Shown piece by piece: positions 1,547 through 21,002 of a stretch of DNA of 64,000 nt. Each line of letters opens with the position of its first letter. Position 1 is the stretch's first letter. This DNA comes from Cupriavidus taiwanensis (lineage in GTDB: Bacteria > Pseudomonadota > Gammaproteobacteria > Burkholderiales > Burkholderiaceae), in NCBI RefSeq assembly GCF_900250075.1, contig NZ_LT977072.1, forward strand, positions 273,079-337,078, read 5' to 3'. The translations under genes were made by a program, and so were the position numbers. The notes below the pieces were generated by a model that saw only the letters and a list, made by a program, of their open reading frames with translations, ran no database searches and was not told the origin of the DNA.

Positions 1547-1608
1547 GTCGATGCGTCTTGGACGCGGAAAGCGTTGAAAGGATAGCCGAACTCACCCTCC
1601 CCGATCAA
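1547..1608 (-). promoter_or_regulatory. Promoter with repeated stem-loop/ATCGAC leader element (copy A)
   Basis: On the minus strand a -35-like TTGATC (1603-1608), an 18-base spacer and a -10-like TATCCT (1579-1584) are followed after 13 bases by a stem-loop GCGTC-CAA-GACGC (1553-1565) and then ATCGAC (1547-1552). It drives the ParB-like gene. The same arrangement recurs at 3135-3197, 13218-13279, 18353-18390 and 20944-21002. Confidence 0.6.
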
Positions 1609-1657
1609 TAGCCGCGCGCCGGCCCGCCGTTCTGGCGTTGGGACAGGCAAAAAAAAA

Positions 1658-1676
1658 AGCCCTCACGTGGAGGGCT
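1658..1676 (-). terminator. Rho-independent terminator after the methylase-like gene
   Basis: On the minus strand AGCCCTC-CACGT-GAGGGCT is followed by a long run of T (complement of the A-run at 1650-1658). It lies just downstream of the leftward gene ending at 1782 and insulates it from the ParB-like promoter. Confidence 0.85.
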
Positions 1677-1781
1677 GAGTGCATCTGAGAGGGTTTCCGT
1701 AGCGGGGGCTACGGAAACCATCATAAGGGCCATGCCGTACCGGCTGACACCCAAAAGCTCGCCAATTTCGACGTGCTTTCT

Positions 1782-2708
1782 TCAGAACAGCGCAAGCTGA
1801 TCGTCAGGAACGAAGATTCGCGGGACGGACCTGGCCGCTGCCCGTTGCATCAGAGATGCGTCGAGTTCCAGCGCCCCTGACTCAACATCCTGCGATTGGG
1901 ACTTGCTCAATGCTTCAGAGGAGTTTTCATGATCCCGTTCGGGCATGGTCGAGACCTCCGCCCGCGCCTGGGATGCCCGCTTTCGACGTAGCTTCGCGCC
2001 CCATCCCCCGAGGATGTGGGCTGGCGTAAACCAGCTCGACCACGCTTCCACGCTCAGCGCATTGCCATGGATGACAATGGCCGGGATGTGGAGCAGCGAC
2101 AGCTGCAGATACGTCATGTGAACGCACCGTGCATCGATATCGATGCACGTAGCATGCATCGTTTGCTGGTAATTGCGGCCGGCGTCATGCAGCGCATCAG
2201 CACAGGCAATGACCATGCCGCCGGCACCGCATGCCGGCTCCTCGATCGTGACAAATCCGTCTCGATCGACGTACGGGTTGCCGTCGCGAACGTTGATACC
2301 CGCCATCAGCCGCGAAACGGTGTATGGCGTGAAGAACTGGCCCGCGCGCTCATTGCCAAGGTCGAGCATCATGTAGGTCTGCCCGAGGATATCGGCTAAG
2401 CCATCCCCGTTCGGAACCAGGCGCTGAACCCGATCCTCAAACGTCATGGTGAGCGCACCTAGCATCTCGGAAAACTTGCTCAGTTCGGCGCGATCGTACT
2501 TCTTCGCGATCTCAAGATAGCGCTTCTCACGCGGGTCATAGTGGTGTCGGTCAACAGCGTTGCTAATCGCCAGGGCCGACATCTCCACAAAATCTGAGAA
2601 GACATCGTTGGTGCTATGCCGATAGCCGAACGACTTGATGAGCGATAACAGCTCTTGATGAGGATCGGTCGCGTTGACCTCGAACTTGCGTTTGGCGGCG
2701 CGACTCAT
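1782..2708 (-). CDS. N6-adenine DNA methylase-like protein lacking motif IV
   Basis: This 308-residue protein resembles the HsdM-type N6 DNA methylases that use S-adenosylmethionine. It has the pre-motif GQFFTPYTVSRLM (about residue 122) and motif I EPACGAGG (about residue 156), followed by CIDIDARCVHMTYLQL and HGNAL. The catalytic motif IV (NPPF/NPPY), expected after GNAL, is absent: the chain goes on as WSSWFTPAHILGGWGAK and then into a low-complexity tail. No specificity or restriction subunit is next to it. It may be a cofactor-binding protein without methylation activity, for example an anti-restriction decoy, or its catalytic motif may be unusual. The role is inference. The start ATG at 2708 gives a full-length N-terminus, and a strong terminator follows at 1658-1676. 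Confidence 0.7.
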   Translation of the reverse strand: MSRAAKRKFEVNATDPHQELLSLIKSFGYRHSTNDVFSDFVEMSALAISNAVDRHHYDPREKRYLEIAKKYDRAELSKFSEMLGALTMTFEDRVQRLVPNGDGLADILGQTYMMLDLGNERAGQFFTPYTVSRLMAGINVRDGNPYVDRDGFVTIEEPACGAGGMVIACADALHDAGRNYQQTMHATCIDIDARCVHMTYLQLSLLHIPAIVIHGNALSVEAWSSWFTPAHILGGWGAKLRRKRASQARAEVSTMPERDHENSSEALSKSQSQDVESGALELDASLMQRAAARSVPRIFVPDDQLALF

Positions 2709-2771
2709 CCCTGCACCTCACGCAGAAATGGGTACGCAGAGCGATTCGATCTACTGGGTTGGGGAGGCAGG

Positions 2772-2808
2772 TGGGGAAACATGTTCCGAAAGGCCGGGAA
2801 AGTACTTC
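2772..2808. promoter_or_regulatory. Two GGGAA/TTCCC palindromes between leftward genes
   Basis: GGGGAAACATGTTCC (2773-2787) and CCGGGAA-AGTAC-TTCCCGG (about 2793-2811) lie between the small membrane-protein gene and the methylase-like gene. They are about 65-105 bases upstream of the latter. The second hairpin may also act as a weak terminator for the gene above it. The function is not established. Confidence 0.35.
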
Positions 2809-2843
2809 CCGGCGGGTAGGAGCTGGCCGGTGACCTGGTAAGG

Positions 2844-3053
2844 TCAGGCGGCGGTGGCAGGCTTGGGATCCAGATTCAGCAGCTTCGCGAGAAGCCAGCT
2901 GATCAGAACCAGAAACTCGATTTCGGCAACGATGTGCAATTGCATTGCGGCAAGACGATCGTCACCAGTGGTCACAACGAAATACAGCGCCGCGAACAGG
3001 TTCAGAACCGTCGCGAGGACGGCCAGCGTGCTGGTACGGGAGGAGATAAGCAT
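2844..3053 (-). CDS. Small two-helix membrane protein, unknown function
   Basis: This encodes 69 residues with two hydrophobic segments: LAVLATVLNLFAALYFVV near residues 10-27, and FLVLISWLLAKLL near residues 46-59. It is probably an inner-membrane hairpin protein with an Arg/Asp-rich loop (TGDDRLAAMQLHIVAE). The Shine-Dalgarno GGAG sits inside an inverted repeat, GGCTCC-ATTTCC-GGAGCC, complementary to 3059-3076, so ribosome access may be structurally controlled. It is preceded by the hairpin at 3080-3103 and by promoter copy B at 3135-3197. I do not recognise the family. Confidence 0.55.
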   Translation of the reverse strand: MLISSRTSTLAVLATVLNLFAALYFVVTTGDDRLAAMQLHIVAEIEFLVLISWLLAKLLNLDPKPATAA

Positions 3054-3058
3054 GGACA

Positions 3059-3103
3059 GGCTCCGGAAATGGAGCCTTCCCCATTGGGAAAAGCCCCAAT
3101 GGG
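3059..3103 (-). promoter_or_regulatory. Tandem leader hairpins masking the ribosome-binding site
   Basis: Two perfect inverted repeats precede the start at 3053: GGCTCC/GGAGCC (3059-3064 and 3071-3076), which holds the Shine-Dalgarno bases in one arm, and CCCATTGGG/CCCAATGGG (3080-3088 and 3095-3103). Confidence 0.5.
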
Positions 3104-3134
3104 TGGAAAAGCAGATGGCCGGTACGCCGGCAAG

Positions 3135-3197
3135 GTCGATGCGCTGAAAGCGCGGAGAATCGGGCGGATATTACAGCGAATTGACGCCGATGGACAA
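3135..3197 (-). promoter_or_regulatory. Promoter with repeated stem-loop/ATCGAC leader element (copy B)
   Basis: The minus strand shows TTGTCC (3192-3197), 18 bases, TAATAT (3168-3173), 14 bases, the stem-loop GCGCT-TTC-AGCGC (3141-3153) and ATCGAC (3135-3140). Compared with copy A the stem sequence differs but pairs perfectly, while ATCGAC is unchanged. Confidence 0.6.
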
Positions 3198-3211
3198 GAC
3201 CCGGGGCGCGG

Positions 3212-3724
3212 TCAACCTTCAGCGCGCCGCCGTCGGCTCGCTTCTCGCAGGCGATTGATGACATCCCAGCGGCGCAGGTCAACCTCTTCCGGGTTCTCCA
3301 GGTTCGAGTGATCCAGTATCGGACCGTCATCGCCAAACGGCGTGTAGTCTTCGGGCAGTTTGCCCTCCTCCTTCAGCCGCGCGGCCTGCAGTTTTGACAG
3401 CCCGTGGCTGGTTTCGCTGATCGCAACGTAGTCCCAGCGCTGCGGCACCGCGGCTTCGGAGAACCAGTCGTCGCCCTCCCCCGTCGCAACGAGAGCGACG
3501 ACGTCATAGACACTGCCTGTCGACGAGGGCAGCGCCCTGACCTCGAAGCGAACGACCTCCGGCCGTGGATGCCAGAACACCCGATCCAGATAGCGTTTGA
3601 ACGTGAAGGCATCCAGGCGCGCGATCTCCCCGTATTGCGGGTCCCCCGGAGGGATGAACTCGCGCTCGCCGGCAGGCCGGGTGCCGAGGGACACTTCGCG
3701 AAAGCTGGTGGTGGGGGACGCCAT
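3212..3724 (-). CDS. Hypothetical soluble protein
   Basis: This encodes 170 residues from the ATG at 3724. Longer versions would need a TTG start, so the ATG is preferred, although its ribosome-binding site is weak (ACGGAAAACG). The sequence is polar, with no signal peptide or membrane segment, and ends in an Arg-rich tail (NRLREASRRRRAEG). Runs such as FKRYLDRVFWHPRPEVVRF and DWFSEAAVPQRWDYVAI suggest a folded alpha/beta protein. I do not recognise the family. It is transcribed away from the helicase block that starts at 3886, and the 160-base gap between them must hold both promoters. Confidence 0.5.
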   Translation of the reverse strand: MASPTTSFREVSLGTRPAGEREFIPPGDPQYGEIARLDAFTFKRYLDRVFWHPRPEVVRFEVRALPSSTGSVYDVVALVATGEGDDWFSEAAVPQRWDYVAISETSHGLSKLQAARLKEEGKLPEDYTPFGDDGPILDHSNLENPEEVDLRRWDVINRLREASRRRRAEG

Positions 3725-3885
3725 GACGTTTTCCGTAAAAGATGGCCCCAATTCTATAGCTTTCACCGACAACTACTGCCGGCCGGGCCGGGAGAATAGC
3801 GTTTGGCAAACCTCGTCCGTCGGGCGCCTTGACTTCGGTGCGGGGCCGGTATCTTGGTCTTAGACCATCCAACTTCTTGCCGCCC

Positions 3886-4329
3886 ATGCGATTCACCCGA
3901 CTCGGACGCCACGACCCCATCGACTTTAACGCCCGCCGCGTGGCCGCCTTCGCGCGCAAACAGCAGCGCGAGCGCGACCGATACCCGCTCTTCACGGAAC
4001 ACGTGGCCGCCGAACAGCACTCCGCCGACGAGGAACTGGCCCGCCGCCAACGGCGCTCCGACAGGCTCGAAACGGCGATGCGCACACTACACGCCCGCGT
4101 CTGGCGCGAGAAGCGCGCTGTCTACTTCTCGCTGACGGCCGAGCAGCGGACGGATATTCGCACCAAGTGGCTGGCGTGGACCGGCCCCACCACCGCCCTC
4201 TACTTCGCCTACATCGTGGACACCGTCAGTGGCGAGGCTGCGCAACGCGCCGCAGCCTCCCGCGAACACGCGCTGACCATCAGGCGACGGGTCCTTGCGA
4301 GCCTGCCAGAACAACTGGAGATGGCATGA
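3886..4329 (+). CDS. Hypothetical basic protein, first gene of helicase cassette
   Basis: This encodes 147 residues from the ATG at 3886 and is rich in Arg, Glu and Ala (AAFARKQQRERDRYPLF, RRQRRSDRLETAM), which suggests long helices. A slightly hydrophobic stretch TGPTTALYFAYIVDTVSG lies near residue 105. No known domain is recognised. Its stop codon overlaps the start of the helicase gene (ATGA at 4326-4329), so the two are translationally coupled and probably act together. Confidence 0.55.
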   Translation: MRFTRLGRHDPIDFNARRVAAFARKQQRERDRYPLFTEHVAAEQHSADEELARRQRRSDRLETAMRTLHARVWREKRAVYFSLTAEQRTDIRTKWLAWTGPTTALYFAYIVDTVSGEAAQRAAASREHALTIRRRVLASLPEQLEMA

Positions 4330-5786
4330 CGCCTACCGACGAACAAGAGCGTGTCGTCGAGGCGGTACGCGCCGGTGGTGCCCTCAAGGTAAAGGCGTAC
4401 GCCGGCGCCGGCAAGACTTCCACGTTGCGCATGGCCGCAGAGGCTCGCGGCCGCGCCCGGGGCCTCTATCTCGCATTCAACAAGGACATTGCGACCGAAG
4501 CCGCCAGCAAGTTCCCGTCCAACACCCGCTGCCGGACCGTACATTCGATCGCCTACGGTGCCACCCGTCCCGAAATCACCCGCAAGCTCAAGAATCCGGT
4601 CGAGCCACCCCATCAGCTGGCCTTGCGCTACAGCCTGGGCCCGATTCGCCTGCCCACCACCATCGGCAAGGATCTGGAGCTGAGCGCCAGCAAGGTCGCT
4701 CGGATGGTGATGGACGGCGCGGCGCGCTTCTGCCGCTCCGCGCAGGGCGAGCCGCTCGCCTGGCATATCCCCGTCGAGCCCATCATCCGGGAAGAGGAAG
4801 CCGAGCACCTGCGCGAATCCCTGCTCCCGCACGTCCATCGGCTGTGGCAGGAATACTGCGATCCCGCGACGCCATCGGCCATCACCCACGACGTGTATGT
4901 GAAGCTTTGGGAGCGAAGCCGCCCGACGATTGGTGCGGACTTCATCCTGTTCGACGAGGCGCAGGATGCCGACGGCCTGATACTGTCGGTGCTGCGCGCC
5001 CAGCAGGCGCAAGTGGTCTATGTGGGGGACCCCTACCAACAGATCTATGAGTGGCGCGGCGCAGTCAATGCGATGGACCACATTCGGGCGCCCGAGCGTT
5101 CGCTCACCGAATCTTTCCGGTTTGGACCGGCGATCGCCCAGCTGGCAAGCCGGGTGCTCAAGCTGATGGACGAAGACGTGCCGGTCCGGGGCCAGGATCA
5201 CATCGAGTCCCGGATTCTGCAGGACTCCACGCCGGGACATGACCGCTTCGACGCCATCCTGTGCCGCAAGAACGCCACGGTGCTGACCCACCTCGCCCAA
5301 GGTATTGCCCGCGGCGACAAAGTCGCCGTGCGCGCCAATGTCGAGGAACTCAAGGCCTTCGCCGACGGCGCCGAATTGCTGATGCGCGGCCAGCGCATTG
5401 GTTACCCCGCCACGCTGGCACTCTTCGAGTCCTGGGAGGAGGTCCAGGAGCACGCCGAATCGTTCGCCGGGCGGGACCTGCAGCCGCTGGTGAAGCTGAT
5501 CGACAACGAGGGAGTGGACTACCTGCGCCTGATCCTCACTCGGGTGTTCCCCGAAGCCGACGCCGACTACATCGTCAGCACCGTGCACCGGGCCAAGGGC
5601 CTGGAGTGGGATCGGGTTCACCTCGCCGGCGACTTCAAGTTCAAGAGCAACGACGAAGGCGACTTGAGCATGTCGCCGGAAGAAATGCGGCTGCTGTATG
5701 TCGCGATGACCCGGGCCAAGCAGCTGCTGGACATCAGCGAGATTCGCCGCGACCTGTACACCATGTTCCGTGACGCCGGAGTTTAG
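4326..5786 (+). CDS. UvrD/Rep-family superfamily 1 helicase
   Basis: This is a 486-residue ATP-dependent DNA helicase of superfamily 1. The motifs are in order: Walker A AYAGAGKTSTL (about residue 25), Walker B DEAQDAD (about 211), motif III GDPYQQIYEWRGA (about 236), motif V STVHRAKGLEWD (about 418) and motif VI YVAMTRAK (about 458). It is compact compared with UvrD (about 720 residues), so the accessory 1B/2B subdomains are reduced. The ATG at 4326 overlaps the previous stop. A good ribosome-binding site leads into the DUF1173 gene 9 bases later. The neighbours suggest a helicase plus nuclease-like partner acting on DNA ends, but substrate and role are unknown. Confidence 0.85.
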   Translation: MTPTDEQERVVEAVRAGGALKVKAYAGAGKTSTLRMAAEARGRARGLYLAFNKDIATEAASKFPSNTRCRTVHSIAYGATRPEITRKLKNPVEPPHQLALRYSLGPIRLPTTIGKDLELSASKVARMVMDGAARFCRSAQGEPLAWHIPVEPIIREEEAEHLRESLLPHVHRLWQEYCDPATPSAITHDVYVKLWERSRPTIGADFILFDEAQDADGLILSVLRAQQAQVVYVGDPYQQIYEWRGAVNAMDHIRAPERSLTESFRFGPAIAQLASRVLKLMDEDVPVRGQDHIESRILQDSTPGHDRFDAILCRKNATVLTHLAQGIARGDKVAVRANVEELKAFADGAELLMRGQRIGYPATLALFESWEEVQEHAESFAGRDLQPLVKLIDNEGVDYLRLILTRVFPEADADYIVSTVHRAKGLEWDRVHLAGDFKFKSNDEGDLSMSPEEMRLLYVAMTRAKQLLDISEIRRDLYTMFRDAGV

Positions 5787-5795
5787 GAGGAGCCC

Positions 5796-7010
5796 ATGAT
5801 CACCGTGCGGGTTGGCAACAGCGAGTTGCCACTTGAAGATGTGTTGGAAAACCCCGGTCGGCATTCCCGCCTGCTGGAACGCGCGAAGACCACACAAGGC
5901 TTTGCCGAGTGCGGTTGCACGGCCGGGCGCCCACGACCCAAGCTGGTCATCCGGCGCCACCGCGAGATCTTCCTGCTCGCGCGCTGGCCCGAACAGGCTC
6001 AGCTGCACGGCGATAGCTGCCCCTTCCAACGCCGCAACACCGGCAAAGGCGGTACCGGCACCGAACTGGACCCATTCCCCTTCCGCAACGGCGCGCTGGA
6101 TATCCGCCTTGAAGCGAGTCAGCGGATCAGCAGCCGCACGCCGGCGAAACCGGTGCAATCCAACCCCGAGGGCGAATCGAGGAAGCCGCAGCGGCGCACC
6201 GCAGGCCTGCTTGCCTTCCTTGAGTTCGCGTGGGAGCAGGCCGGGCTGAACCTCTGGCCCGGCACGGGCGGACGGGGGTGGAGCGCTTGCTGGTCCCACC
6301 TGAGCGCCGAGCTGGCGGATTGCCGCATCAATAGCCAGCCCGCCGACAAGACGCTCCATATCCTCGAGCGCTGGGACCCCGCGCGCAAAGCAGAGATCCT
6401 GGCGGAACTGGATGCGTGGCTGGCCAGGCTCACACCATCCGCCTCTGGTAGCCGGCGAGGCCTGCTGATCGCCGAGGTTGCGTCGCACGAGCCGTCGCAG
6501 TTCGGAGCAAAGTTCGTTCTCCGGCAAACGCAGCTGCGGTGCTTCATGAGCAGCGCGCTGTACGAGCGCCTGCAGCGCTCTTACGGACCGGCGTTGGCCG
6601 GGGCTGGCCAGCCGAATCTGCGATGTGTAGCCGTGTTCCTGGTCGAAAAGCCGGTTGACAGGAACTATCTCACGATCGTGGACGGCGCCGCGTTGCTGAC
6701 GAACGCGCAATTCCTGCCCTGCGACTCCACCTACGAAGTGGCGATGGCCGATCACCTGATCGGGCTACGCCGCGCTTTCCGCAAGCCGCTGCGCCACCTC
6801 GGCAACGCGCCCGTCCACCCGGATTTTGTCCTCACCGATACGGCTGCCGAGGTCATCATCGAAGTCCTTGGGCTCACCGGCAACCCGGAGTACGACGCCA
6901 GAACGGCGTCCAAGCGTGAGCACTACCGAAGCGCCGGCATGTCCGTGGTCGAATGGGAGGCGCCCACGCAGGCGCTGGATTCGGTCCAGCTGCCGCCGGC
7001 GGCGAAGTGA
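5796..7010 (+). CDS. DUF1173-family protein with nuclease-like C-terminus
   Basis: This is a 404-residue protein. The N-terminal part (ECGCTAGRPRPKLVIRR, FLLARWPEQAQLHGDSCPF) matches the pattern of plasmid-borne DUF1173 proteins, with Cys/His positions that may bind metal. Near the C-terminus, HPDFVL, then EVIIEVLG, then a Lys in SKREHYRS look like a PD-(D/E)xK nuclease core. That reading is inference from the motif. It follows the helicase by 9 bases with the ribosome-binding site AGGAGGAG, so the two are co-translated. It could be the nuclease arm of a helicase-nuclease pair. No biochemical role is established for the family. Confidence 0.6.
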   Translation: MITVRVGNSELPLEDVLENPGRHSRLLERAKTTQGFAECGCTAGRPRPKLVIRRHREIFLLARWPEQAQLHGDSCPFQRRNTGKGGTGTELDPFPFRNGALDIRLEASQRISSRTPAKPVQSNPEGESRKPQRRTAGLLAFLEFAWEQAGLNLWPGTGGRGWSACWSHLSAELADCRINSQPADKTLHILERWDPARKAEILAELDAWLARLTPSASGSRRGLLIAEVASHEPSQFGAKFVLRQTQLRCFMSSALYERLQRSYGPALAGAGQPNLRCVAVFLVEKPVDRNYLTIVDGAALLTNAQFLPCDSTYEVAMADHLIGLRRAFRKPLRHLGNAPVHPDFVLTDTAAEVIIEVLGLTGNPEYDARTASKREHYRSAGMSVVEWEAPTQALDSVQLPPAAK

Positions 7011-7023
7011 TCGGGGGCAGCCC

Positions 7024-7458
7024 ATGAAGCGTGACGACGCATCCCTCAACGACGAGTTGTTCCACCAGGCCGTCGAGCTGGTCCACCAGCACCGCGCGGC
7101 GTCGACTGCGCTCATCCAGCGCCATCTGCGGGTCGGCTGGCGAGCTGCAGAAGCACTGCTGCAACGTATGGCCACCGAGACGATGGCCGTGCGCAAGATG
7201 CAGAACGGCCTGTACCTCTACATCCACGGCCCCATTGGCGAGGAACTGGCGCGACTCACCGGCTTCGCCCAGGAGGTGTTGAGCGCGCTGACCACGGATC
7301 GGATCGACGCGGACCAACTGCGCGCGGCCGCGCTCCGGCACGGGCTTGCTGAAGAGGCGACAGTCTCCGCGCGTTGTGGCGACGGGTGCGCTTGCGCGAC
7401 GCTGTTCGAGTTCCCCGTCGTGTGCTTCCGGCCCAGTGCTGACCTGGCCGGGCGCTGA
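7024..7458 (+). CDS. Winged-helix protein resembling the FtsK gamma domain
   Basis: This encodes 144 residues. The first half, NDELFHQAVELVHQHRAAS then LIQRHLRVGWRAAEALLQRM, fits the pattern of the FtsK gamma winged helix, which reads short DNA motifs, but no motor domain is attached. The middle (ATETMAVRKMQNGLYLYI) could be the wing. The C-terminus has closely spaced cysteines (CGDGCACATLFEF). It starts 13 bases after the DUF1173 gene and belongs to the same transcription unit. A stand-alone DNA-binding regulator or targeting factor is plausible. Confidence 0.55.
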   Translation: MKRDDASLNDELFHQAVELVHQHRAASTALIQRHLRVGWRAAEALLQRMATETMAVRKMQNGLYLYIHGPIGEELARLTGFAQEVLSALTTDRIDADQLRAAALRHGLAEEATVSARCGDGCACATLFEFPVVCFRPSADLAGR

Positions 7459-7594
7459 GGGACCACCGGGATGGCGAGCCGGTATCCCTTTCCTTGACTT
7501 GCCTGTACGCGCTACGCTGGATCGCATCCAGTTCAAGCAACCCAACCGCGCCTTCCCCGTCCATGAAGGCATTGCGAGGCGAGGAGATTCGATA

Positions 7595-8919: not shown

Positions 8920-8961
8920 CGTGGCGGGCTCGAAGAATCAGTGCACTCAACCAAGGAAGCA

Positions 8962-9234: not shown

Positions 9235-9289
9235 TTGCCGGCCGGCGGCGCAGGGCATAATTCCGGCTTTCTCCATCCCGGATCCCGCC

Positions 9290-11289: not shown

Positions 11290-11303
11290 GAGTTGAGCTC
11301 CTC

Positions 11304-12455: not shown

Positions 12456-13217
12456 TCTGAGCCCCAAGGCGCCACACAGTGCACGGCGCAGTTTCCCGGG
12501 CAATCACCGACCCCGATTCGGACATGCCCCTCGAGTGCGCCGGGATACCACCCCCGGCTTTCCGGCCCACCCTGGCCGGCCTTACCCACCACCTTCCTGT
12601 CCTTTAGCGATGCCAAACCGATCAGCCCTGAGCATGGAAGCAATGCGTCGTGACTGTCCGCTGCACGAAGCGCGTCGGCTTTCGCCCACACGCCGCTGCG
12701 CGGCCACCCTATCCGGATGCATCTCTCGATGCAGGGCCCTGCCGCGCCAGGATTGCGTCCTGATGCTGGCGGGCCCGCCGTGATGGGTGATTACCTGATG
12801 CGCTGTTCTGGTTCCGGTAGCGCCCTCCGGTTCGAAATTGCTCAGAAGCCTGCTATCCACCTTCTTGCGGTGCGCACATGGCTCCCCGCCCCAAAGCCAG
12901 ATCATCCCCGCCGCAGTGTGTCGGGCTTCGTGATCCGCACCCAGCCAAGCGGCTGAACGGGCGTCGTGCATTCGCGTCGATTCCACAGAGCACCTGTCCG
13001 GTGTCCGGCTTCGGAATTGTCCGCACTACGGTCTATTTTCACGAACAGACCGCCAATCGGCTTGGTATCGCGGTGTCCGGTGTCCTCACTATCCGACACG
13101 GTCCACTTGATTTGATTGAAAAAAATGCCGGGAAAATTTCCGGCTTGGTCAACTGGTGTCCGCAAGCCCTCGCCAAGGAGGTTTTGGGACTTTCATTGCC
13201 GCGCAACTGGCGGCGAG

Positions 13218-13279
13218 GTCGATGCGTCGGGGACGCGGTAGGTGCTCGAAGCATAAACCAGCGACCCACAGCGTTGCAA
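13218..13279 (-). promoter_or_regulatory. Promoter with repeated stem-loop/ATCGAC element (copy H, no adjacent gene)
   Basis: The minus strand shows TTGCAA (13274-13279), 18 bases, TATGCT (13250-13255), 13 bases, the stem-loop GCGTC-CCC-GACGC (13224-13236) and ATCGAC (13218-13223). The spacing matches copy A exactly. No start codon with a ribosome-binding site follows within several hundred bases leftward, so its product may be an RNA, or it may work on single-stranded DNA. Confidence 0.5.
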
Positions 13280-13496: not shown

Positions 13497-13562
13497 ACTG
13501 GGACATTGGACGTCGCAGCACATCGTAGCCACCCATCACCCATTTCCTCTAGGAGAAGAGCA

Positions 13563-14564: not shown

Positions 14565-14575
14565 GGACAGCGGCC

Positions 14576-15043
14576 ATGGACAAGCTACAGATGACCGTGA
14601 CGCTGTCCGCCGACTCAGCACCGGATCTGCTTGCATACCTGCGGCAGTACACGGGAGCGAGGGAGCGGTCGTTCATGCTCAGGCTGCTCGCACAACGAGG
14701 ACTGCAGCAGGTGCTCAGCGCTGGCCCGGATGCGCTGCTGCGTCCGCTATCGCCAGCGCCCGCGTCTACCGGTACTCCGGCCGCGCCGCCGGGCGGCTGG
14801 AGACCGGATCAACCTGACCGGGTGCCGGCGACTCGGATGGAGACGCCGCCGGAAAGGCCTATTGGGTTGCGAGCCCCTGTGGGAGCGCCAGCTGCTGAAC
14901 CGCCACCGCCGGCGCCCGCATCACTGGCACCTGCGGTGGGATCGGTGGCCGCGCCCGTGGCGGCCCCCACAACGGGTAGCCCGGATCCGCTTGCGGGTCT
15001 CGATCTTGGCGCCCTCAATGAGGCTATGGCACGATTCGAGTAA
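14576..15043 (+). CDS. ParR/StbB-like adaptor protein
   Basis: This encodes 155 residues. The N-terminal 50 (LQMTVTLSADSAPDLLAYLRQYTGARERSFMLRLL, in pieces) look like a ribbon-helix-helix DNA-binding domain, as in StbB/ParR. The rest is Pro/Ala-rich and disordered and ends LGALNEAMARFE, a short amphipathic tail of the kind that contacts ParM filaments. Position directly after parM supports the role. The family identity is inferred from order and size rather than from a strong motif. Confidence 0.6.
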   Translation: MDKLQMTVTLSADSAPDLLAYLRQYTGARERSFMLRLLAQRGLQQVLSAGPDALLRPLSPAPASTGTPAAPPGGWRPDQPDRVPATRMETPPERPIGLRAPVGAPAAEPPPPAPASLAPAVGSVAAPVAAPTTGSPDPLAGLDLGALNEAMARFE

Positions 15044-15128
15044 TCGATATCCCCTTTGCGCAAGCTTGACAAGCGTCCTTCCGATGGCAAGCTTGTCTCG
15101 TCGGCAACAACAACTGAGGAACCGAACC

Positions 15129-15254
15129 ATGTTCGAATACCTTTCCACCAATCACGATATCAACCGCTTCGTCTTCACGGTCCTCATCGGCTGGTGCGTG
15201 TGGGAAGCCCTTCTGGTGGTCTTCAAGGGCGTCAAGTCCCGCAAGCGAGGTTGA
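15129..15254 (+). CDS. Very small membrane protein
   Basis: This encodes 41 residues. It starts MFEYLSTNHDINRF, has one hydrophobic segment VFTVLIGWCVWEALLVVF and a basic end KGVKSRKRG, which predicts a single-pass inner-membrane peptide. The ribosome-binding site TGAGGA lies 9 bases before the ATG. It follows parR after 85 bases that hold an imperfect repeat of CAAGCTTG. The function is unknown. The palindromic terminator hit by the IS lies 28 bases after its stop. Confidence 0.5.
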   Translation: MFEYLSTNHDINRFVFTVLIGWCVWEALLVVFKGVKSRKRG

Positions 15255-15281
15255 CTCGCTGATCCACGCGGACAAAAAAAA

Positions 15282-15303
15282 AAGCCCAGCAATCGCTGGG
15301 CTT
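15282..15303. terminator. Palindromic terminator, left copy (duplicated by IS insertion)
   Basis: AAGCCCAGC-AATC-GCTGGGCTT is a perfect hairpin preceded by ten A residues, so it terminates leftward transcripts strongly. The identical palindrome occurs at 16901-16922 on the other side of the IS and was probably duplicated on insertion. Confidence 0.75.
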
Positions 15304-16903
15304 CAGCTTGCTGACAAAGCCTCCCACTTTGCGGGAGGCTTTGTTCATAATGGCGTGATGCTCAAGACGCCTGCTCCTTACCAGCACGAGCTGGAGATGG
15401 TGACGCTGGAATCGTTAGTGCCAGCCGATCACCTGCTTCGCAAGATCGATGCTGCGGTCGATTTCGAGTTCATCCGGGCCAAGGTCGCGCACCTGTACTG
15501 CGCCGATAACGGTCGCCCGGCGCTCGATCCGGTGGTGATGTTCAAGCTGCTGTTCATTGGCTACCTGTTCGGGGTGCGCAGTGAGCGGCAACTGATGCGC
15601 GAAGTGCAGGTCAACGTCGCCTATCGCTGGTTTGCCGGCTTCCGGCTGACCGACAAGGTGCCGGACGCGTCGACCTTCTCGCAGAACCGCCGCCGGCGTT
15701 ATACCGACACCACGGTGTATCAGGAGATCTTCGACGAGGTCGTGCGTCAGGCGATGGGGCACGGCATGGTTGATGGCCGGGTGCTGTACACCGACAGCAC
15801 CCATTTGAAGGCCAGCGCCAACAAGAACAAGTTTGACGTGGTGCAGGTCGAGCAGACGCCGTCTGCCTACCTGGCAGAACTGGATGCTGCGGTCGATGCG
15901 GACCGTGCCGCGCATGGTAAGAAGCCGCTCAAGCGCGATAACGATGGTGATGGGCAAGCCGGCGGCAAGCCCCACACCAAGGAGACCAAGGTCAGCCGCA
16001 CCGACCCGGACAGCGGCTACATGGTGCGCGACGACAAGCCCACGGGCTTCTTCTATCTGGACCACCGCACGGTCGACGCCAAGCACGCCATCATCACCGA
16101 CACCCACGTCACGCCGGCCTCGGTGCACGACAGTCAGCCATATCTGGCGCGGCTGGACCGGCAGCGCGAACGCTTCGGCTTTGATGTGCGGGCCGTTGGC
16201 CTGGATGCCGGCTACTTCACGCCGATGGTGTGTCACGGCCTGGAGAGCCGCCGCATTGACGGGGTGATGGGCTACCGCACACCGAACCACAAGCCCGGCA
16301 CCTTCTACAAGCGGGAGTACGAGTACGACCGCTATCGCGATGTCTACGTCTGCCCGCGCGGGCAGGAACTGCCCTACAGCACGACCAACCGGGTGGGCTA
16401 CCGGGAGTACAAATCAGACCCGAAGCAGTGCCGGCAGTGCGAGGTGCGCCCGCAATGCACGAACAGCCAAAACGCGATCAAGGTGGTGGTGCGCCACGTG
16501 TGGGAGCGCGACAAGGAGCGGGTCGATGCGCGGCGCCACACCGCCTGGGGCAAGAAAATCTATGCCCGGCGCAAGGAGACGGTCGAGCGCAGCTTCGCCG
16601 ATGCCAAGCAGTTGCACGGGCACCGCTATGCGCGCATGCGCGGCTTGCGCAAGGTGGCCGAGCAATGCCTGCTGGCCGCGGCGGCGCAGAACATCAAGAA
16701 GATCGCGCTGGTGCTGGCGCGCCTTTTTATGCGTCTTTGGTGGCTGATGCCGACCCAATCCGAGCTTCACAGTTCGTTCGGGGGCCGATTCCGGATCATT
16801 CCGCAACGCCGGCCGATGCTGCGGCGGGCTGTCTGAGCGGACCTGGCCACCAAAAACAAAACCCCACACTCCGAAAAATGTGGGGTTCGTCAGCAATCTG
16901 AAG
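15301..16903 (+). mobile_element. IS1182-family insertion sequence
   Basis: The ends are inverted repeats: CTTCAGCTTGCTGACAAAGCC at the left (15301-15321), against its inverse complement with four changes at the right (about 16883-16903). It holds one transposase gene and a hairpin at each end (AAAGCCTCCC/GGGAGGCTTT and ACCCCACA/TGTGGGGT). It is flanked by direct copies of the palindrome CCCAGCAATCGCTGGG. Members of this family are known to prefer palindromes and make variable target duplications. The exact ends are ambiguous by about 3-6 bases because the target and ends share CTTC/GAAG. Confidence 0.85.
15358..16836 (+). CDS. IS1182-family DDE transposase
   Basis: This is a 492-residue transposase, complete in length. 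The N-terminal domain has LVPADHLLRKIDAAVDF and MFKLLFIGYLFGVRSERQL. Catalytic-core landmarks are VLYTDSTHLKASANKNKF (first Asp), VRAVGLDAGYFTP (second Asp) and ETVERSFADAKQLHGHRYAR (Glu), with a zinc-binding CRQCEVRPQC insert. The ATG at 15358 is preferred over the GTG one codon earlier. It is intact, so the element may still be active. Confidence 0.92.
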   Translation: MLKTPAPYQHELEMVTLESLVPADHLLRKIDAAVDFEFIRAKVAHLYCADNGRPALDPVVMFKLLFIGYLFGVRSERQLMREVQVNVAYRWFAGFRLTDKVPDASTFSQNRRRRYTDTTVYQEIFDEVVRQAMGHGMVDGRVLYTDSTHLKASANKNKFDVVQVEQTPSAYLAELDAAVDADRAAHGKKPLKRDNDGDGQAGGKPHTKETKVSRTDPDSGYMVRDDKPTGFFYLDHRTVDAKHAIITDTHVTPASVHDSQPYLARLDRQRERFGFDVRAVGLDAGYFTPMVCHGLESRRIDGVMGYRTPNHKPGTFYKREYEYDRYRDVYVCPRGQELPYSTTNRVGYREYKSDPKQCRQCEVRPQCTNSQNAIKVVVRHVWERDKERVDARRHTAWGKKIYARRKETVERSFADAKQLHGHRYARMRGLRKVAEQCLLAAAAQNIKKIALVLARLFMRLWWLMPTQSELHSSFGGRFRIIPQRRPMLRRAV

Positions 16904-16942
16904 CCCAGCAATCGCTGGGCTTCTTGTTAAGGGTTGGCGCGC

Positions 16943-17152
16943 TCAATGCAGCGTCGGCGCAAGGCAGTAGTCGAGGGCGGAATCGAAAGACAGCAGCCGA
17001 TCGAGGAACGTCATGCTTCCCGACGGATCACGGCGATACACATCAAAGAACTGCGCTTCCGACTGGCCGGCCGTGACGTCAGTCGCGGCCGAGCTGCGCA
17101 TCGCGTGGATATGCAGCTTGTTGACGATGGCGGTGAATCCCTTCTGTGGCAT
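16943..17152 (-). CDS. Small hypothetical protein in primase/SSB region
   Basis: This encodes 69 residues from the ATG at 17152 with the ribosome-binding site AGGAG. The sequence MPQKGFTAIVNKLHIHAM, then AQFFDVYRRDP and DRLLSFDSALDY, shows no known motif and no membrane segment. It is the last gene of the leftward housekeeping block. The right-hand copy of the IS-duplicated palindrome follows 20 bases after its stop but now lacks the T-run it had before the insertion. Two perfect hairpins precede it (17171-17213). Confidence 0.5.
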   Translation of the reverse strand: MPQKGFTAIVNKLHIHAMRSSAATDVTAGQSEAQFFDVYRRDPSGSMTFLDRLLSFDSALDYCLAPTLH

Positions 17153-17170
17153 TGTCAATCTCCTGAGAGA

Positions 17171-17213
17171 GCCTGCCACGGGGGTGCTCCCCCTGTGGGA
17201 AGGACCCACAGGG
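17171..17213 (-). promoter_or_regulatory. Leader hairpins before the 69-residue gene
   Basis: GGGGG-TGCT-CCCCC (about 17180-17193) overlaps CCCTGTGGG/CCCACAGGG (17191-17199 and 17205-17213). These alternative, mutually exclusive hairpins lie 28-61 bases before the start at 17152. Confidence 0.45.
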
Positions 17214-17252
17214 CAGAGGTTAAGTACGGCGCCACGAGAGGTGGCGATTAAG

Positions 17253-18326
17253 TCAGGCTGCGATCGCCTGGCAAGACATACGGCGCAACTGGTATTCGGT
17301 GCGCCATTGATCGCAGAAGTCAGTGCCCCGGACTTTGGGGCGATGCATTACGGTACGCAGCCCGGCAGCGCGCAAGCGCTTGTCCAGCTTCAATGCGTCA
17401 GCCATGCCTGGCGATTTTCCAGTCGCTGGGTCAATCTGGTCGAAATCCGCAAAGATGTGGACCGTGTGAATGCCCAGGCCTGGGGGTATCTCGAACTGGC
17501 TAAGCAACACGCGATTCAGACAATTCCAGGTCGGCACGCCAAAAAGCATGTAGGCTGCATATGCATTCTCCAGACCTTCGGCCACGCCCACTTCGCCGGC
17601 GCGTGGCGACATTAGCCGCACCGCACCACCGGAAACCGGCAAGGCCGACACATCGTTGCGCTTGGAAGGCAGGATTTCTCCATCCTCCGCGACAATCAAT
17701 GCCTTGGCAGGGGCCGAAGGGTCCAACGAGGTACGATGCACCGTTGCCATGCGCCCATCCGGTAGCGTGAACTTCGCAAGGATTGTTGGATAGCGGCCGA
17801 TGATCTGACCGTCATGCCAGTAATCCTGCATCGCAAGACGCAGCGCGCTTGGCTTTGGTGCCCGCAGGCCTGGCACGCGTGCAGCGAGATACCGCATGGC
17901 GTGATCCCCAGGCGACAGCTCCGTTGCGGCGTTCCACTTCCTGGCGATGCGGCGCAGCTTTGCTGCCGAGTCATTGATCTTGTGACGAGGCGCTGGACCT
18001 CGCATTGCGCTAGCCTCGATCGGAAGGGCTGGCCCACCATTCAGTTCCAGCAGCAGCTGTCGATACGACAAGCCGGTGAAGCAGCGTACGAGCTCCAGGC
18101 CGTCGCCAGCTTTCGGACTTCCTGCATTGCACTTGCGGCACACCCAGTCGCCGCGGCCGCGCTTGTTGTCATACGTGAAACGGTCGTGGCCACCGCAGAG
18201 GGGGCAGGGACCGGGGCGGCCCTGCCAGAAGCTGTCCGTCAGGACTTCCGCTGGCAGATAACGCCTGAGCAGACCTTCCCATTGAGCGGGCGTCCAGCTT
18301 CCAACAATGTCACTCAGATATTTCAT
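17253..18326 (-). CDS. Primase-like protein (zinc-binding plus Toprim domain)
   Basis: This encodes 357 residues from the ATG at 18326, preceded by GGAG. The N-terminal zinc ribbon is CPLCGGHDRF then WVCRKCNAG (Cys at about 41, 44, 64 and 67), as in phage/plasmid primase-helicases (TraC- and P4-alpha-like). The Toprim core shows VGVAEGLENAYAA (about residue 252) and VHIFADFDQID (about 297). No helicase domain is attached. It probably makes primers on the incoming single strand or at the origin. It has its own weak promoter with leader element copy D, and it follows the SSB operon. Confidence 0.8.
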   Translation of the reverse strand: MKYLSDIVGSWTPAQWEGLLRRYLPAEVLTDSFWQGRPGPCPLCGGHDRFTYDNKRGRGDWVCRKCNAGSPKAGDGLELVRCFTGLSYRQLLLELNGGPALPIEASAMRGPAPRHKINDSAAKLRRIARKWNAATELSPGDHAMRYLAARVPGLRAPKPSALRLAMQDYWHDGQIIGRYPTILAKFTLPDGRMATVHRTSLDPSAPAKALIVAEDGEILPSKRNDVSALPVSGGAVRLMSPRAGEVGVAEGLENAYAAYMLFGVPTWNCLNRVLLSQFEIPPGLGIHTVHIFADFDQIDPATGKSPGMADALKLDKRLRAAGLRTVMHRPKVRGTDFCDQWRTEYQLRRMSCQAIAA

Positions 18327-18352
18327 GGGATGGCTCCGTAATGGGAGGATGG

Positions 18353-18390
18353 GTCGATGCCTGAGACAGGCGTGAAGACGCTTGCTCAAA
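18353..18390 (-). promoter_or_regulatory. Repeated stem-loop/ATCGAC leader element (copy D)
   Basis: On the minus strand the stem-loop GCCTG-TCT-CAGGC (18359-18371) is followed directly by ATCGAC (18353-18358), 27 bases from the primase start. A -10-like TTTGAG sits at the expected 13-base distance (18385-18390), but the promoter match is weak. The stem sequence differs from all other copies yet pairs fully. Confidence 0.5.
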
Positions 18391-18581
18391 GGACATCCCG
18401 GCGTTGGCCAGAAGGTCGTTTCAGCATGGCGAGGGGAGAATGTCGGCGGGATCGCCGCGGAAGGAGAACTGCGACCGCCGAAGCGATCGCAGTTGTGAAG
18501 GCAGAGTTCAGCTGGCTGATGCGGGTAGGAGATCAGCAGCCGTTACACCAGAACGGGATGCCGTCCAGTGCTTACTCAAGA

Positions 18582-19109
18582 TTAGAACGGAATATCGTCG
18601 TCCATATCCTCGAAGCCGTTCGACGCCGGCTGCTGCGGACGGCGCGCGGCGCCACCCTGCTGGCCGCCACCGCCCTGCGCGCCACGGCCGCTGCCATAGC
18701 CGCCGCCCGAAGATTCACGCTGATAACCGCCGCCCCCGTGGCCGCCTTCATCGCCGCCGCTGTCGCCGCCGCCCTGGCGCGAACCCAGCATCTGCATCTG
18801 GTCGGCGACGATCTCGGTGGAGTACTTGTCCTGGCCGGACTGATCCTGCCACTTTCGGGTGCGGATGCGGCCTTCGATATAGACCGATGAGCCCTTGCGC
18901 AGGTACTGGGCGGCGATCTCGGCCACCTTGCCGAACATCGCTACACGATGCCACTCGGTGGCTTCCTTCATCTCGCCGGACGGCTTGTCCTTGTAGCGAT
19001 CAGTGGTGGCAATGCGAATGTTGGTGACCGCATCGCCGCTGGGCATGTATCGGGTTTCCGGGTCTGCACCCAGGTTGCCCACGAGGATGACCTTGTTTAC
19101 GGATGCCAT
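18582..19109 (-). CDS. ssb: Single-stranded DNA-binding protein
   Basis: This 175-residue SSB has an N-terminal OB fold ([21 protein letters not shown], then [22 protein letters not shown] and [18 protein letters not shown]), a Gly-rich spacer and the acidic partner-binding tip DDDIPF. It coats single-stranded DNA during replication and conjugative entry. The ribosome-binding site GGAAGGA precedes the ATG at 19109. It is the fourth gene of a leftward operon starting at 20747. An SSB beside a primase is typical of plasmid leading regions. Confidence 0.95.
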
Positions 19110-19121
19110 GATCCTTCCAAT

Positions 19122-19913
19122 TCAATGTACGAGGTTAATTGACCAGACCCAACGATCCCAGAGCTTTTGCACTCCGGTCGCGCGGTCCATGATGGGTGCA
19201 CCGCTCTTCTTGTCGAAGGCAGGCACTTTTTCCCGATGCAGTCTCCTGACGGCAATCCGGTCCCCCAGCTTGCAACGAGCGTCGGCCAGCGCATCCTTAA
19301 GGCCTTCGCCTTGAAGGATCTTCTCGCCGGTGGCCGTTGAAAGCTTCAGCGCGAACGACGTGTAGGAACGAGGCCCGCCCGCCTTTCGGTTAGGGAATGT
19401 CATTTCGCCCCACTCGAGCAGCTCACCCACGGTGTAGGTTTGAGAGGAGGCCTGCGCCGGCGCAGCACTTCCGGAGCCGCTGCTGGCCACCTCCTGTCGA
19501 CCACCACCCTCCGCACTCGGCGCGGAACGAGTCGGCCGCTCGCGGAGGCGGAGCTCCGGCTCCACAGCAGCTTGCGAAGGCCCCTGGGAATCAGGCGGGT
19601 TGCCGTCCTGAATGACGCTCGCAGCAACGTGTTCCAGCGACATGTCCACATGCTCGCTGACCTTTTTCCACCGGGGGAAGACTTCAGGCAGCAGCTTATC
19701 GCCATACGGGGTGCGTTGGAGCCGGTGTTCGAACACACCAACGAAGTGAACCACGCGATCACATTCCTTCCGAAGCAGATGCGGGACACCGTGAACATAG
19801 AACTGCCGTTCGTTCGGGTCCCCTCTCCCAACGGGAATCGGATCGGTGCTGTCCCCTCGTTGCTCAGGGTTCAGGACTGCGGCAACGCGCTTGATGAGGT
19901 TGAGCCAGGACAT
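19122..19913 (-). CDS. Hypothetical protein with relaxase/primase-type C-terminal domain
   Basis: This encodes 263 residues from the ATG at 19913. The N-terminal half (MSWLNLIKRVAAVLNPEQRG, then FPRWKKVSEHVDMSLEHV) is unrecognised and is followed by a disordered Pro/Ser/Ala linker. The C-terminal 90 residues (YTVGELLEWGEMTFPNRKAGG, then TGEKILQGEGLKDALADARCKLGDRIAVRRL) resemble the small beta-rich domain found at the ends of many plasmid relaxases and TraC-like primases (G-x-DL-x-AL, then GDRI). It could help tether primase or relaxase. It starts 2 bases after the previous stop, within the SSB operon. Confidence 0.5.
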   Translation of the reverse strand: MSWLNLIKRVAAVLNPEQRGDSTDPIPVGRGDPNERQFYVHGVPHLLRKECDRVVHFVGVFEHRLQRTPYGDKLLPEVFPRWKKVSEHVDMSLEHVAASVIQDGNPPDSQGPSQAAVEPELRLRERPTRSAPSAEGGGRQEVASSGSGSAAPAQASSQTYTVGELLEWGEMTFPNRKAGGPRSYTSFALKLSTATGEKILQGEGLKDALADARCKLGDRIAVRRLHREKVPAFDKKSGAPIMDRATGVQKLWDRWVWSINLVH

Positions 19914-19915
19914 GA

Positions 19916-20344
19916 TCAGAGAAGTGAGCCGCAGCACAAGCGACGGACCGCTTCAAGGTCCTCGCGCAGGCGGCGGTGGTTCAGAATCACGTCTTGCAGC
20001 GTCTCGGGGTCGACCCCCGATACCGCGCAGACGTACGTGTAGGGCAGTGCGCCGTTCCAGTATCCAAAGATCCAGCCCAGCGTCATGGAGTACTCCTCCC
20101 GGTCGAGCGTGCGATTGCGCATGCGGGCACGCAGCATCTCGGCGCAATCGATCAGGGACTCGGGCATGTTGTCGCCGCGCCTGCTGTCGCAGGCCAGGCT
20201 GATCAGGGCGTCGACCATTTTCTCCCGCACCGACTCGCTCCAGAGGGACGGGTCAGGCAAGGGGTCGAGCTTGGGGGGCGGCACCTCGATAGCGGCTGCT
20301 TCACCGAAGAAGTCCAGCTGCCATCCGGCGGTTGTGGTTTCCAT
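19916..20344 (-). CDS. Hypothetical protein in SSB operon
   Basis: This encodes 142 residues from the ATG at 20344 with GGAG before it. It starts METTTAGWQLDFFGEAAAIEVPPP and carries WSESVREKMVDALISLACDS and MTLGWIFGYWNGALPYTYVCAVSGVDPE. The second half looks like a compact helical domain. There is no signal peptide and no known family. It sits two bases before the next gene in the operon. A 9-base-arm hairpin (20384-20402) lies in its leader. Confidence 0.5.
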   Translation of the reverse strand: METTTAGWQLDFFGEAAAIEVPPPKLDPLPDPSLWSESVREKMVDALISLACDSRRGDNMPESLIDCAEMLRARMRNRTLDREEYSMTLGWIFGYWNGALPYTYVCAVSGVDPETLQDVILNHRRLREDLEAVRRLCCGSLL

Positions 20345-20383
20345 GATGGTCTCCGGGTAGGCACCCGACAGACCCACCTGGCG

Positions 20384-20402
20384 GCGGGTATCGGATACCC
20401 GC
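20384..20402 (-). promoter_or_regulatory. Leader hairpin before the 142-residue gene
   Basis: GCGGGTATC (20384-20392) and GATACCCGC (20394-20402) form a perfect inverted repeat with a one-base centre, 40 bases before the start codon. Confidence 0.5.
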
Positions 20403-20441
20403 GACAGGTGAAAAGCGCCGCCCAGAGGGGCGGCATGGGAA

Positions 20442-20747
20442 TTAGGAGCGGTCGTGCGTTCCTGTCCGGCGAATAGGCGTTACCACAGCCGAGCGCTCGT
20501 ACTGGCGCTCGGGCTCCGGCATCTCCTCAGCTTCGGGCTTCAACTTGGACAGGTTGTCCGGCATCGAAACCTTCGGTGCAGCGGGAATTGCTTTGGACCA
20601 GGCCACACCCCTGTGATACAGGAACGAGAGCCCGACGACGGTCACAAAAGCACCGACGATGAACGACTGCGAGGCCACATACAGCACCATGCAGAACATA
20701 AAGAGTTGGAACGGACGCTTGATGAGGTTCGTGACAAAGGATTCCAC
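20442..20747 (-). CDS. Small membrane protein, first gene of SSB operon
   Basis: This encodes 101 residues with a GTG start at 20747. The GTG is chosen because GGAG lies 7 bases before it and no in-frame ATG fits. Two hydrophobic segments, LFMFCMVLYVASQSFIVGAFVTVVGLSFLY (read as a hairpin around residues 14-45), are followed by an acidic/basic cytoplasmic tail (LKPEAEEMPEPERQYERS). The function is unknown. Its leader carries CCTGGC-GGAT-GCCAGG (20779-20794), and copy G of the stem-loop element lies 197 bases upstream. Confidence 0.5.
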   Translation of the reverse strand: MESFVTNLIKRPFQLFMFCMVLYVASQSFIVGAFVTVVGLSFLYHRGVAWSKAIPAAPKVSMPDNLSKLKPEAEEMPEPERQYERSAVVTPIRRTGTHDRS

Positions 20748-20943
20748 GGTTTCTCTCCAGAAACAAAAAAAGGGAATTCCTGGCGGATGCCAGGCGATTA
20801 TTCGATGCTCGGGCGAGCAAGGAATCTCTGGAGGGAAGCTGCAGCGCTTCAACGTACTTGCGTCATGCGGTAGTGCATGGCGAAAGCACGCTGGCGGGGA
20901 TGAGGGGCTGCTGCAATGGAGCGCTAGGTAACCCTAGGCTCAT

Positions 20944-21002
20944 GTCGATGCGTGGTGAACGCTGAAGTCCATCCGATCCTAATTGGACTCTGCTGTCGAC
21001 AA
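20944..21002 (-). promoter_or_regulatory. ssb: SSB-operon promoter with stem-loop/ATCGAC element (copy G)
   Basis: The minus strand shows TTGTCG (20997-21002), TAGGAT (20976-20981), 13 bases, the stem-loop GCGTT-CAC-CACGC (20950-20962; the inner pair is mismatched) and ATCGAC (20944-20949). It would drive the operon ending in ssb. Confidence 0.5.

Follow-up and report, generated by a model that had tools for sequence, protein, structure and literature searches.

A repeated hairpin-AUCGAC module in candidate structured mRNA leaders of PRTRC megaplasmids

Results

A repeated hairpin and tag on a Cupriavidus megaplasmid

The stretch of DNA analyzed here (the window) comprises 64,000 nucleotides (nt) of a 361 kb contig (NZ_LT977072.1) within the 6.77 Mb genome of Cupriavidus taiwanensis, and it belongs to a PRTRC megaplasmid of Cupriavidus. 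With its first 21.5 kb as the query, a plasmid record of Cupriavidus taiwanensis matched at 100% identity across 93% of their length, and pHG1 and pMOL28 were among the more distant plasmid matches. On its minus strand a short hairpin (stem-loop 1, SL1), whose commonest form is GCGTC-N3-GACGC, recurs with the hexamer ATCGAC (the tag) directly 3' of it. Judging from sequence comparison, we think it on balance probable that SL1 and the tag form the 5' module of structured mRNA leaders common to the backbone operons of PRTRC megaplasmids, through which a common factor would set translation or mRNA stability.

The genes that adjoin the motif encode PRTRC ParB, ThiF, B and F proteins, all of which lie above the NCBIfam cut-off (TIGR03734, TIGR03736, TIGR03737, TIGR03742) and make this a PRTRC replicon; a primase-type zinc-ribbon protein, an integrase-domain protein and SSB are also among the neighbors. 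Farther along the same contig lie VirB-type conjugation genes, genes for Rep3-like and ParA-like proteins and a TraI_2 relaxase match (contig position 320147). Because of this gene content (PRTRC with VirB-type, Rep3-like and ParA-like functions) we dropped an ICEclc/PAPI-type element, a candidate that gene order had suggested.

The original prediction for this DNA had listed five stem-loops followed by ATCGAC, and all five are present on the minus strand exactly where it placed them (copies A to E in Table 1); its count missed a sixth window copy, F, at 20818-20807. The exact sequence GCGTC-N3-GACGC-ATCGAC occurs nine times in the 6.77 Mb genome, always on one strand of the window contig between 250.9 and 286.3 kb, and the reversed-pattern controls occur 0 times. 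A relaxed scan of that contig gave 12 credible copies, spread from 250.9 to 294.0 kb, and copy F brings the total to 13 copies in 43 kb, all on one strand and six of them inside the window. This total leaves out a far copy with a six-base loop at 192.8 kb of the window contig (C3) and a decayed copy on the 5.9 kb contig C14. The latter (locus L113, 3366-3418) is a second lipoprotein-leader copy, with its tag altered to ACCGAC.

Table 1. Copies of the element and associated genes in the window (positions are those of the window)
Feature	Position	Strand	Basis or remark
PRTRC ParB gene	1..1410	-	Downstream of copy A; start codon at 1410; extends past the window edge
Copy A SL2, GCCCC-TTTT-GGGGC	1529..1542	-	Sequence and SL2 statistics
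Copy A tag, ATCGAC	1547..1552	-	Sequence
Copy A SL1, GCGTC-CAA-GACGC	1553..1565	-	Pattern scan
Copy A -10-like hexamer, TATCCT	1579..1584	-	13 nt from SL1; predicted transcription start near 1572
Gene for 69-amino acid protein	2844..3053	-	First gene after copy B; hydrophobic stretch (by eye)
Copy B hairpin, GGCTCC-ATTTCC-GGAGCC	3059..3076	-	Would pair the Shine-Dalgarno sequence, just 5' of the start codon; from sequence and the fold of ortholog L056
Copy B SL2, GCCGG-CGTA-CCGGC	3118..3131	-	Sequence
Copy B tag, ATCGAC	3135..3140	-	Sequence
Copy B SL1, GCGCT-TTC-AGCGC	3141..3153	-	Compensated stem
Copy B -10-like hexamer, TAATAT	3168..3173	-	14 nt from SL1; predicted
Copy C tag, ATCGAC	13218..13223	-	Sequence
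Copy C SL1, GCGTC-CCC-GACGC	13224..13236	-	Pattern scan
Copy C -10-like hexamer, TATGCT	13250..13255	-	Predicted from sequence
Gene for primase-type zinc-ribbon protein	17253..18326	-	Start codon 45 nt from the SL1 start of copy D
Copy D tag, ATCGAC	18353..18358	-	Sequence
Copy D SL1, GCCTG-TCT-CAGGC	18359..18371	-	Directly 5' of the primase-type gene
ssb operon	18582..20747	-	101-amino acid protein (start 20747), 271-amino acid protein (19122-19937), SSB (18582-19109)
Copy F tag, ATCGAA	20801..20806	-	Sequence
Copy F SL1, GCTCG-CC-CGAGC	20807..20818	-	Before the ssb operon; similar copies in pBVIE02 (L030) and L037
Copy E tag, ATCGAC	20944..20949	-	Sequence
Copy E SL1, GCGTT-CAC-CACGC	20950..20962	-	4 of 5 pairs, innermost lost; first of two tandem copies before the ssb operon
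Copy E -10-like hexamer, TAGGAT	20976..20981	-	Predicted from sequence

SL1 is conserved as a structure

How far does the hairpin-tag combination exceed chance, and is it the shape or the sequence of the stem that is kept? A perfect hairpin of the 5-3-5 form followed by ATCGA was found 164 times (152 distinct copies) in 76 loci totaling 1.07 Mb; 119 permuted tails, counted in the same way, averaged 2.8. Of the 152, 120 carry the tag as ATCGAC and 17 as ATCGAA, and the stem is GCGTC/GACGC in 126, stem frequencies being biased here by the choice of many of the 76 loci for their GCGTC form. A set of 146 distinct near-matches (two control tails together gave 2 rows) contains 121 with the GCGTC/GACGC stem and 25 with others; by our judgment 14 of the 25 are compensated, with stems such as GCGCC/GGCGC, GCGCT/AGCGC, GCCTG/CAGGC and GCTCG/CGAGC, two are wobble-paired, three are short of one pair, and six were set aside as chance matches or as hairpins in another register. 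The loop letters are free except that G is scarce (9, 3 and 8 of 142 at the three positions).

The size of the hairpin also varies, with loops of 2 to 6 nt and stems of 4 to 6 bp before the tag. Hairpins that start with GC and are followed by the tag were found 13 times with a 4-bp stem and a 4-nt loop (0.57 expected), 10 times with the 4/5 geometry (0.55 expected; some of these are 5/3 copies with a weak inner pair) and four times with the 5/4 geometry (0.35 expected). GCGC-N4-GCGC is present in several plasmids and GCGTC stems occur with loops of 4, 5 and 6 nt, ATCGAC being directly 3'; the window contig itself has a 5/6 form, and a pMOL28-like record has a 6/3 form, apparently at the primase leader. 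Ensemble folding of 58 leaders predicts SL1 to be paired with a probability of 0.99 and the tag to be unpaired with a median probability of 0.82. By these comparisons SL1 is conserved as a structure: changed stems mostly stay paired and sizes vary, while AUCGA(C/A) persists. The original prediction had described compensating stem changes beside a fixed ATCGAC; the compensated stems do exist, but covariation is found in a minority of the copies and the tag is not invariant.

Promoter-like and terminator-like settings upstream of SL1

Filtering the 141 core copies to below 80% identity left 115 representatives. A -10-like hexamer (A second, T last) lies 12-14 nt 5' of SL1 in 82 of these, and at exactly 13 nt in 68; the count was made without a shuffled control, simple arithmetic giving an expectation of about 14% at equal base use. 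An A occupies position -7 from SL1 in 59 of the 68 and is likely the transcription start, so that in most copies SL1 begins about 8 nt past the predicted start. The -35 sequence and 18-nt spacer that the original prediction assigned to three of its copies (A, B and H in its lettering) can be read there (TTG...), but in the consensus of the relatives' upstream regions only a T at -42 stands out (47 of 68).

Among the other 33 representatives, context marks four as chance matches, and another three, with AATACT at 13 nt, fail only the first-base rule. The rest, which have no -10 sequence, are mostly preceded (by eye) by a hairpin and a short T-rich stretch ending TTTYACC; these hairpins were not flagged as terminators in a scan of a 15 kb stretch. 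At one locus of this terminator-like class, an alignment of nine orthologs has compensatory changes in the upstream hairpin, in a second stem-loop (SL2) and farther down (9 of 50 predicted pairs in all), and the SL1 loop varies freely.

The rest of the leader

Subtraction of the four representatives rejected by context (L077, L081, L047 and L048) left 111, of which 90 have a Shine-Dalgarno-like start within 330 nt. In 58 of these 90 the distance from the SL1 start to the start codon is 90-125 nt, some of the called starts being wrong (several ParB leaders were placed at an internal ATG or GTG). Predicted folding of the 90 leaders compared with 20 shuffles of each gave a median z of -3.4. SL2, with at least 5 pairs and beginning 1-6 nt past the six-base tag, is present in 47 of 58 leaders, compared with 18% of shuffles; its arms take 24 different sequences, some of which overlap. 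The stretch between SL2 and the next hairpin (SL3) is 70% pyrimidine, and SL2, SL3 and a last hairpin occur together in 25 of the 58 leaders against 2.4% of shuffles. Apart from SL1, a MAFFT/RNAalifold consensus of 22 mixed leaders recovers just three pairs, which lie farther along; the remaining hairpins vary in sequence and in register between leaders, which is why SL2 was measured leader by leader.

Two loci upstream of divergent PRTRC parB genes (L114 and L115) lack SL1-AUCGAC and have, by eye, a hairpin of similar style over the ParB Shine-Dalgarno sequence. From this comparison the layer of ribosome-site hairpins may be older than the tag.

Distribution of the element among genomes

The pattern GCGTC-N3-GACGC-ATCGAM was found in 69 of 299 Burkholderiaceae genomes (the reversed-pattern controls gave 1 match overall). 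At least two copies are present in 49 of the 69, and the single match in each of the other 20 may be chance; in the multi-copy genomes for which places were listed, the copies are usually clustered on one strand of one contig. Possession of multiple copies follows the PRTRC backbone closely: 44 of 45 genomes with a PRTRC ParB (a match at E <= 1e-60) have at least two, against 5 of 254 without one (Fisher p = 7e-46, ignoring relatedness). In pHG1 and in pMOL28 the 42 kb around parB contain seven copies each (GCGTC-type or compensated), several of them at matching genes. In pBVIE02 of B. vietnamiensis copies are found upstream of parB, at the ssb operon and ahead of the gene that follows ssb, which is a primase by position only. 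The PRTRC plasmids of Aromatoleum (EbN1) and Polaromonas have no hairpin-plus-tag repeat in the 42 kb examined, and a loose pattern run over their whole records gave unpaired matches only. We accordingly set aside the idea that distant PRTRC plasmids have the element in diverged form, these 42 kb regions and loci L114 and L115 having yielded none.

Outside Burkholderiaceae, one of 387 genomes (398 searched, minus 11 listed as the own genome, genus or family) had a single match, against two matches of the reversed-pattern controls. A motif search of genome contigs gave 55 loci, of which 47 carry Burkholderiaceae genus names. Seven of the other eight (six sphingomonads and one metagenome-assembled genome) share one conserved single-frame open stretch, and the eighth is an Intrasporangiaceae metagenome-assembled genome. 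In the seven (L132, L144, L152, L154, L155, L166 and L167; mostly sphingomonads) the 22 fixed bases of the motif fall inside that conserved frame, which we take to resemble argC, and their presence there is apparently a coincidence. Ten matches in viral contigs are, by eye, isolated. Model R1 gave up to 31.1 bits on 18 non-Burkholderiaceae and viral loci, which had been picked for holding the motif, and among the matches listed for 150 genomes of the order nothing outside the own genome exceeded 27.4 bits. Most true copies score at least 28 bits with R1 (copies D and E score 23.4 and 12.7 bits, and F is not found by it), and its E-values are too generous, 89 of the 150 genomes giving a "match" at 0.001. 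In these searches we see no convincing copy of the element outside Burkholderiaceae.

Relation to known RNAs and promoter motifs

Rfam 15 has no match in the window, and the element is not a member of any of its families. A search of 12 motif-centered loci against Rfam (to E = 5) gave only two above-threshold matches, both to sbcD RNA (RF01757) and both about 270-280 nt past SL1. Like the element, sbcD RNA is a structured RNA of Burkholderiales (Weinberg et al. 2010, PMC2864571) and occurs on these plasmids. Its matches (to a 155-position model) do not cover SL1-AUCGAC, which places the element outside that family, and none was found beside the window copies or in loci L001, L002, L004, L005 and L008. 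One of the matches lies outside the window at C3:257164-257316 (L021:17164-17316), about 270 nt from the SL1 start of copy C3:257588, and the stretch of about 425 nt from SL1 through the sbcD RNA is conserved, pHG1 and pMOL28 being 88-89% identical there and two other relatives 72-73%. From this alignment the Rfam sbcD model may cover just the 3' part of a conserved leader stretch. A small RNA partner within sbcD RNA was considered and rejected: no complement of the tag stood out in the alignment by eye, and no systematic duplex search was made.

The Burkholderiales-1 motif, a candidate Burkholderiales RNA without an Rfam accession that is named once, in a table, in the account of these RNAs (PMC2864571), could be the same element. 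The transfer-competence promoter motif of ICEclc likewise recurs over many promoters of one conjugative element (PMC9286271), but it is a 27-bp motif of bimodal promoters in another family of elements, and the main text of that report mentions no hairpin, stem or palindrome. In C. metallidurans CH34 the promoter consensus TAnAAT is reported for pMOL30 and, unlike the other replicons, pMOL28 does not show it (PMC7563307); the leader module may contribute to this difference. The full list of CH34 start sites is given as a supplementary table (PMC9045368). No prior description of the element was found in the open-licence literature, and our best reading of the sequences is that this element, absent from Rfam, represents a new family of structured mRNA leaders.

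Discussion

A leader module read as RNA

What the sequence comparison demonstrates is that the leaders of a defined set of genes share, at a common place, a hairpin under structural constraint together with the tag; that the element acts as RNA, that a common factor reads AUCGAC and that the output is translation or stability are what we infer from it. RNA is favored over single-stranded DNA because of the wobble pairs, the place between the predicted start and the start codon, and the added hairpins. By sequence, most leaders consist of SL1, a single-stranded AUCGA(C/A), a covarying SL2, the pyrimidine-rich stretch, further hairpins and the start codon. We picture the module as working as follows: In the promoter class transcription would start about 8 nt 5' of SL1, and in the promoterless class the mRNA would be cut in the U-rich stretch after the terminator-like hairpin, and the primary and the processed mRNAs would thus both begin with a few unpaired bases and then SL1. 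On pMOL28 (minus strand, numbered as in a 171,459-base record) this model predicts primary starts at 90669, 84558, 83384, 75119 and 130858, and processed ends within a few bases of 82676, 78883 and 134330. A factor of the plasmid or the host (an RNA-binding protein or a small RNA) would recognize SL1 and AUCGAC, and this recognition would set the translation or mRNA stability of the whole gene set together. More tentatively, and as a possibility that we would not yet bet on, the copies could constitute a plasmid-wide RNA regulon in which one trans factor switches about a dozen backbone mRNAs (partition, ssb, primase, SbcCD and membrane proteins) and processing equalizes the promoterless copies. 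The idea of a shared regulon of backbone genes with a promoter-leader module was already part of the original prediction, and the clustering of the copies, the spacing of the -10-like hexamer and the near-coincidence with PRTRC ParB genomes lend it support.

Several observations weigh against this reading. Our scans demanded a hairpin that touches the tag, so the flush junction is partly built in, and with 83% of stems being GCGTC the stem is conserved as sequence too. Scanned by strict sigma-70 criteria, a 15 kb stretch with six of the copies yielded no promoter (shuffles had a mean of 2.4). Some copies depart from the plan of about 100 nt between SL1 and the start codon, the distance being 45 nt for the primase copy, 155 nt for parB and several hundred nt for C3:257588 and C3:286314. 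SL2 is absent from 11 of 58 leaders, and strict detection of the last hairpin succeeds in 35 of 58 leaders against 34% of shuffles. Pairing of the Shine-Dalgarno sequence is only modestly above that in control genes (median unpaired 0.22 vs 0.30); the p value of 3e-6 for the 58 leaders ignores relatedness and comes with a slightly wider Shine-Dalgarno rule than that used for the controls, among which genes without a Shine-Dalgarno-like sequence were skipped, and within three plasmids the comparison (n = 8 vs 66) gives p = 0.048. The modeled pairing of the Shine-Dalgarno sequence is suggestive only. Finally, Pfam scans of 30 backbone or regulon proteins recognized no RNA-binding regulator, save SSB and helicases.

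Could the same arrangement instead be a binding site in double-stranded DNA? A dimeric repressor or activator bound to GCGTC-N3-GACGC, at about +8 to +20, would account for the predominance of a single stem sequence, for a site at a fixed distance just past the -10-like element and for a gene set that forms one regulon, and a shared repressor operator was one of the two mechanisms put forward in the original prediction. We regard it as decidedly improbable, since the near-invariant ATCGAC lies on one side only, the half-site spacing differs between copies (2- to 6-nt loops and 4- to 6-bp stems), a change in one arm comes with the matching change in the other even where the half-site is as different as GCCTG or GCTCG, one class of copies has no -10 element to repress, and SL2 covaries as well. 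A dimeric DNA-binding protein needs fixed spacing and no one-sided tag, and neither fixed half-site spacing nor symmetric conserved flanks were found. The other mechanism of the original prediction, a promoter or establishment signal that acts in the incoming single strand during conjugation, by analogy with the leading regions of F-type plasmids, and that would bring about zygotic induction, found no support. The copies do lie on one strand in each of the window replicon, pHG1, pMOL28 and pBVIE02, near ssb, primase-type and ParB genes, but most have a conventional -10-like element outside the hairpin. Mildly against it, the elements and the relaxase are on opposite strands in the window replicon, pHG1 and pMOL28 and on the same strand in pBVIE02, orientation being judged against the relaxase gene. 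Such a single-strand signal seems to us very improbable.

Small hairpins near promoters of mobile elements are familiar from the put RNA of phage HK022 and the Frpo single-stranded DNA promoters of F. By analogy with the put sites, SL1 and SL2 might act in cis as an antitermination or polarity-suppression RNA that lets polymerase pass operon terminators. Two hairpins near a promoter fit this, as do the copies within operons that come right after terminator-like hairpins, a place at which reloading might help; the common distance to the start codon and the hairpins that continue up to the ribosome site are not needed for it, and the hairpins before the promoterless copies were not recognized as terminators (above), so we consider it unlikely. 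SL1 might also be no more than a terminal hairpin that shields the mRNAs from decay at the 5' end and needs no regulatory factor. Its place at the predicted 5' end, and the fact that several different stems of this shape serve, agree with such a role, but the near-invariant AUCGA(C/A) tag (137 of 152) would be left unexplained, and we give this explanation a low probability.

The usual description of a plasmid backbone regulon is a set of operators. If the plasmid-wide RNA regulon proves correct, a megaplasmid controls its entire backbone after transcription and not via operators. The family of megaplasmids that includes pMOL28, pHG1, pBVIE02 and their relatives appears to bear a repeated hairpin-coded mRNA tag that is not in Rfam; if confirmed, it would offer a way to study the coordination of maintenance genes in PRTRC megaplasmids, and its natural variants would be ready-made material for finding the factor that reads the tag.

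Other observations

Counted on both strands, ATCGAC occurs 71 times in the window against 37 expected from shuffles, far more often than there are copies of the element; the surplus perhaps reflects Ile-Asp codon usage. In one relative two group II intron matches lie between element copies (L033:10690-14792, plus strand), downstream and on the other strand. The approximately 740 nt past copy C (window 12507-13236, minus strand) contain no recognized gene and are 85% identical to pHG1, while the next gene, which encodes the integrase-domain protein, is 75% identical. This region carries repeats of CCGGACAC and GGACACC, and it could be an origin or another regulatory region.

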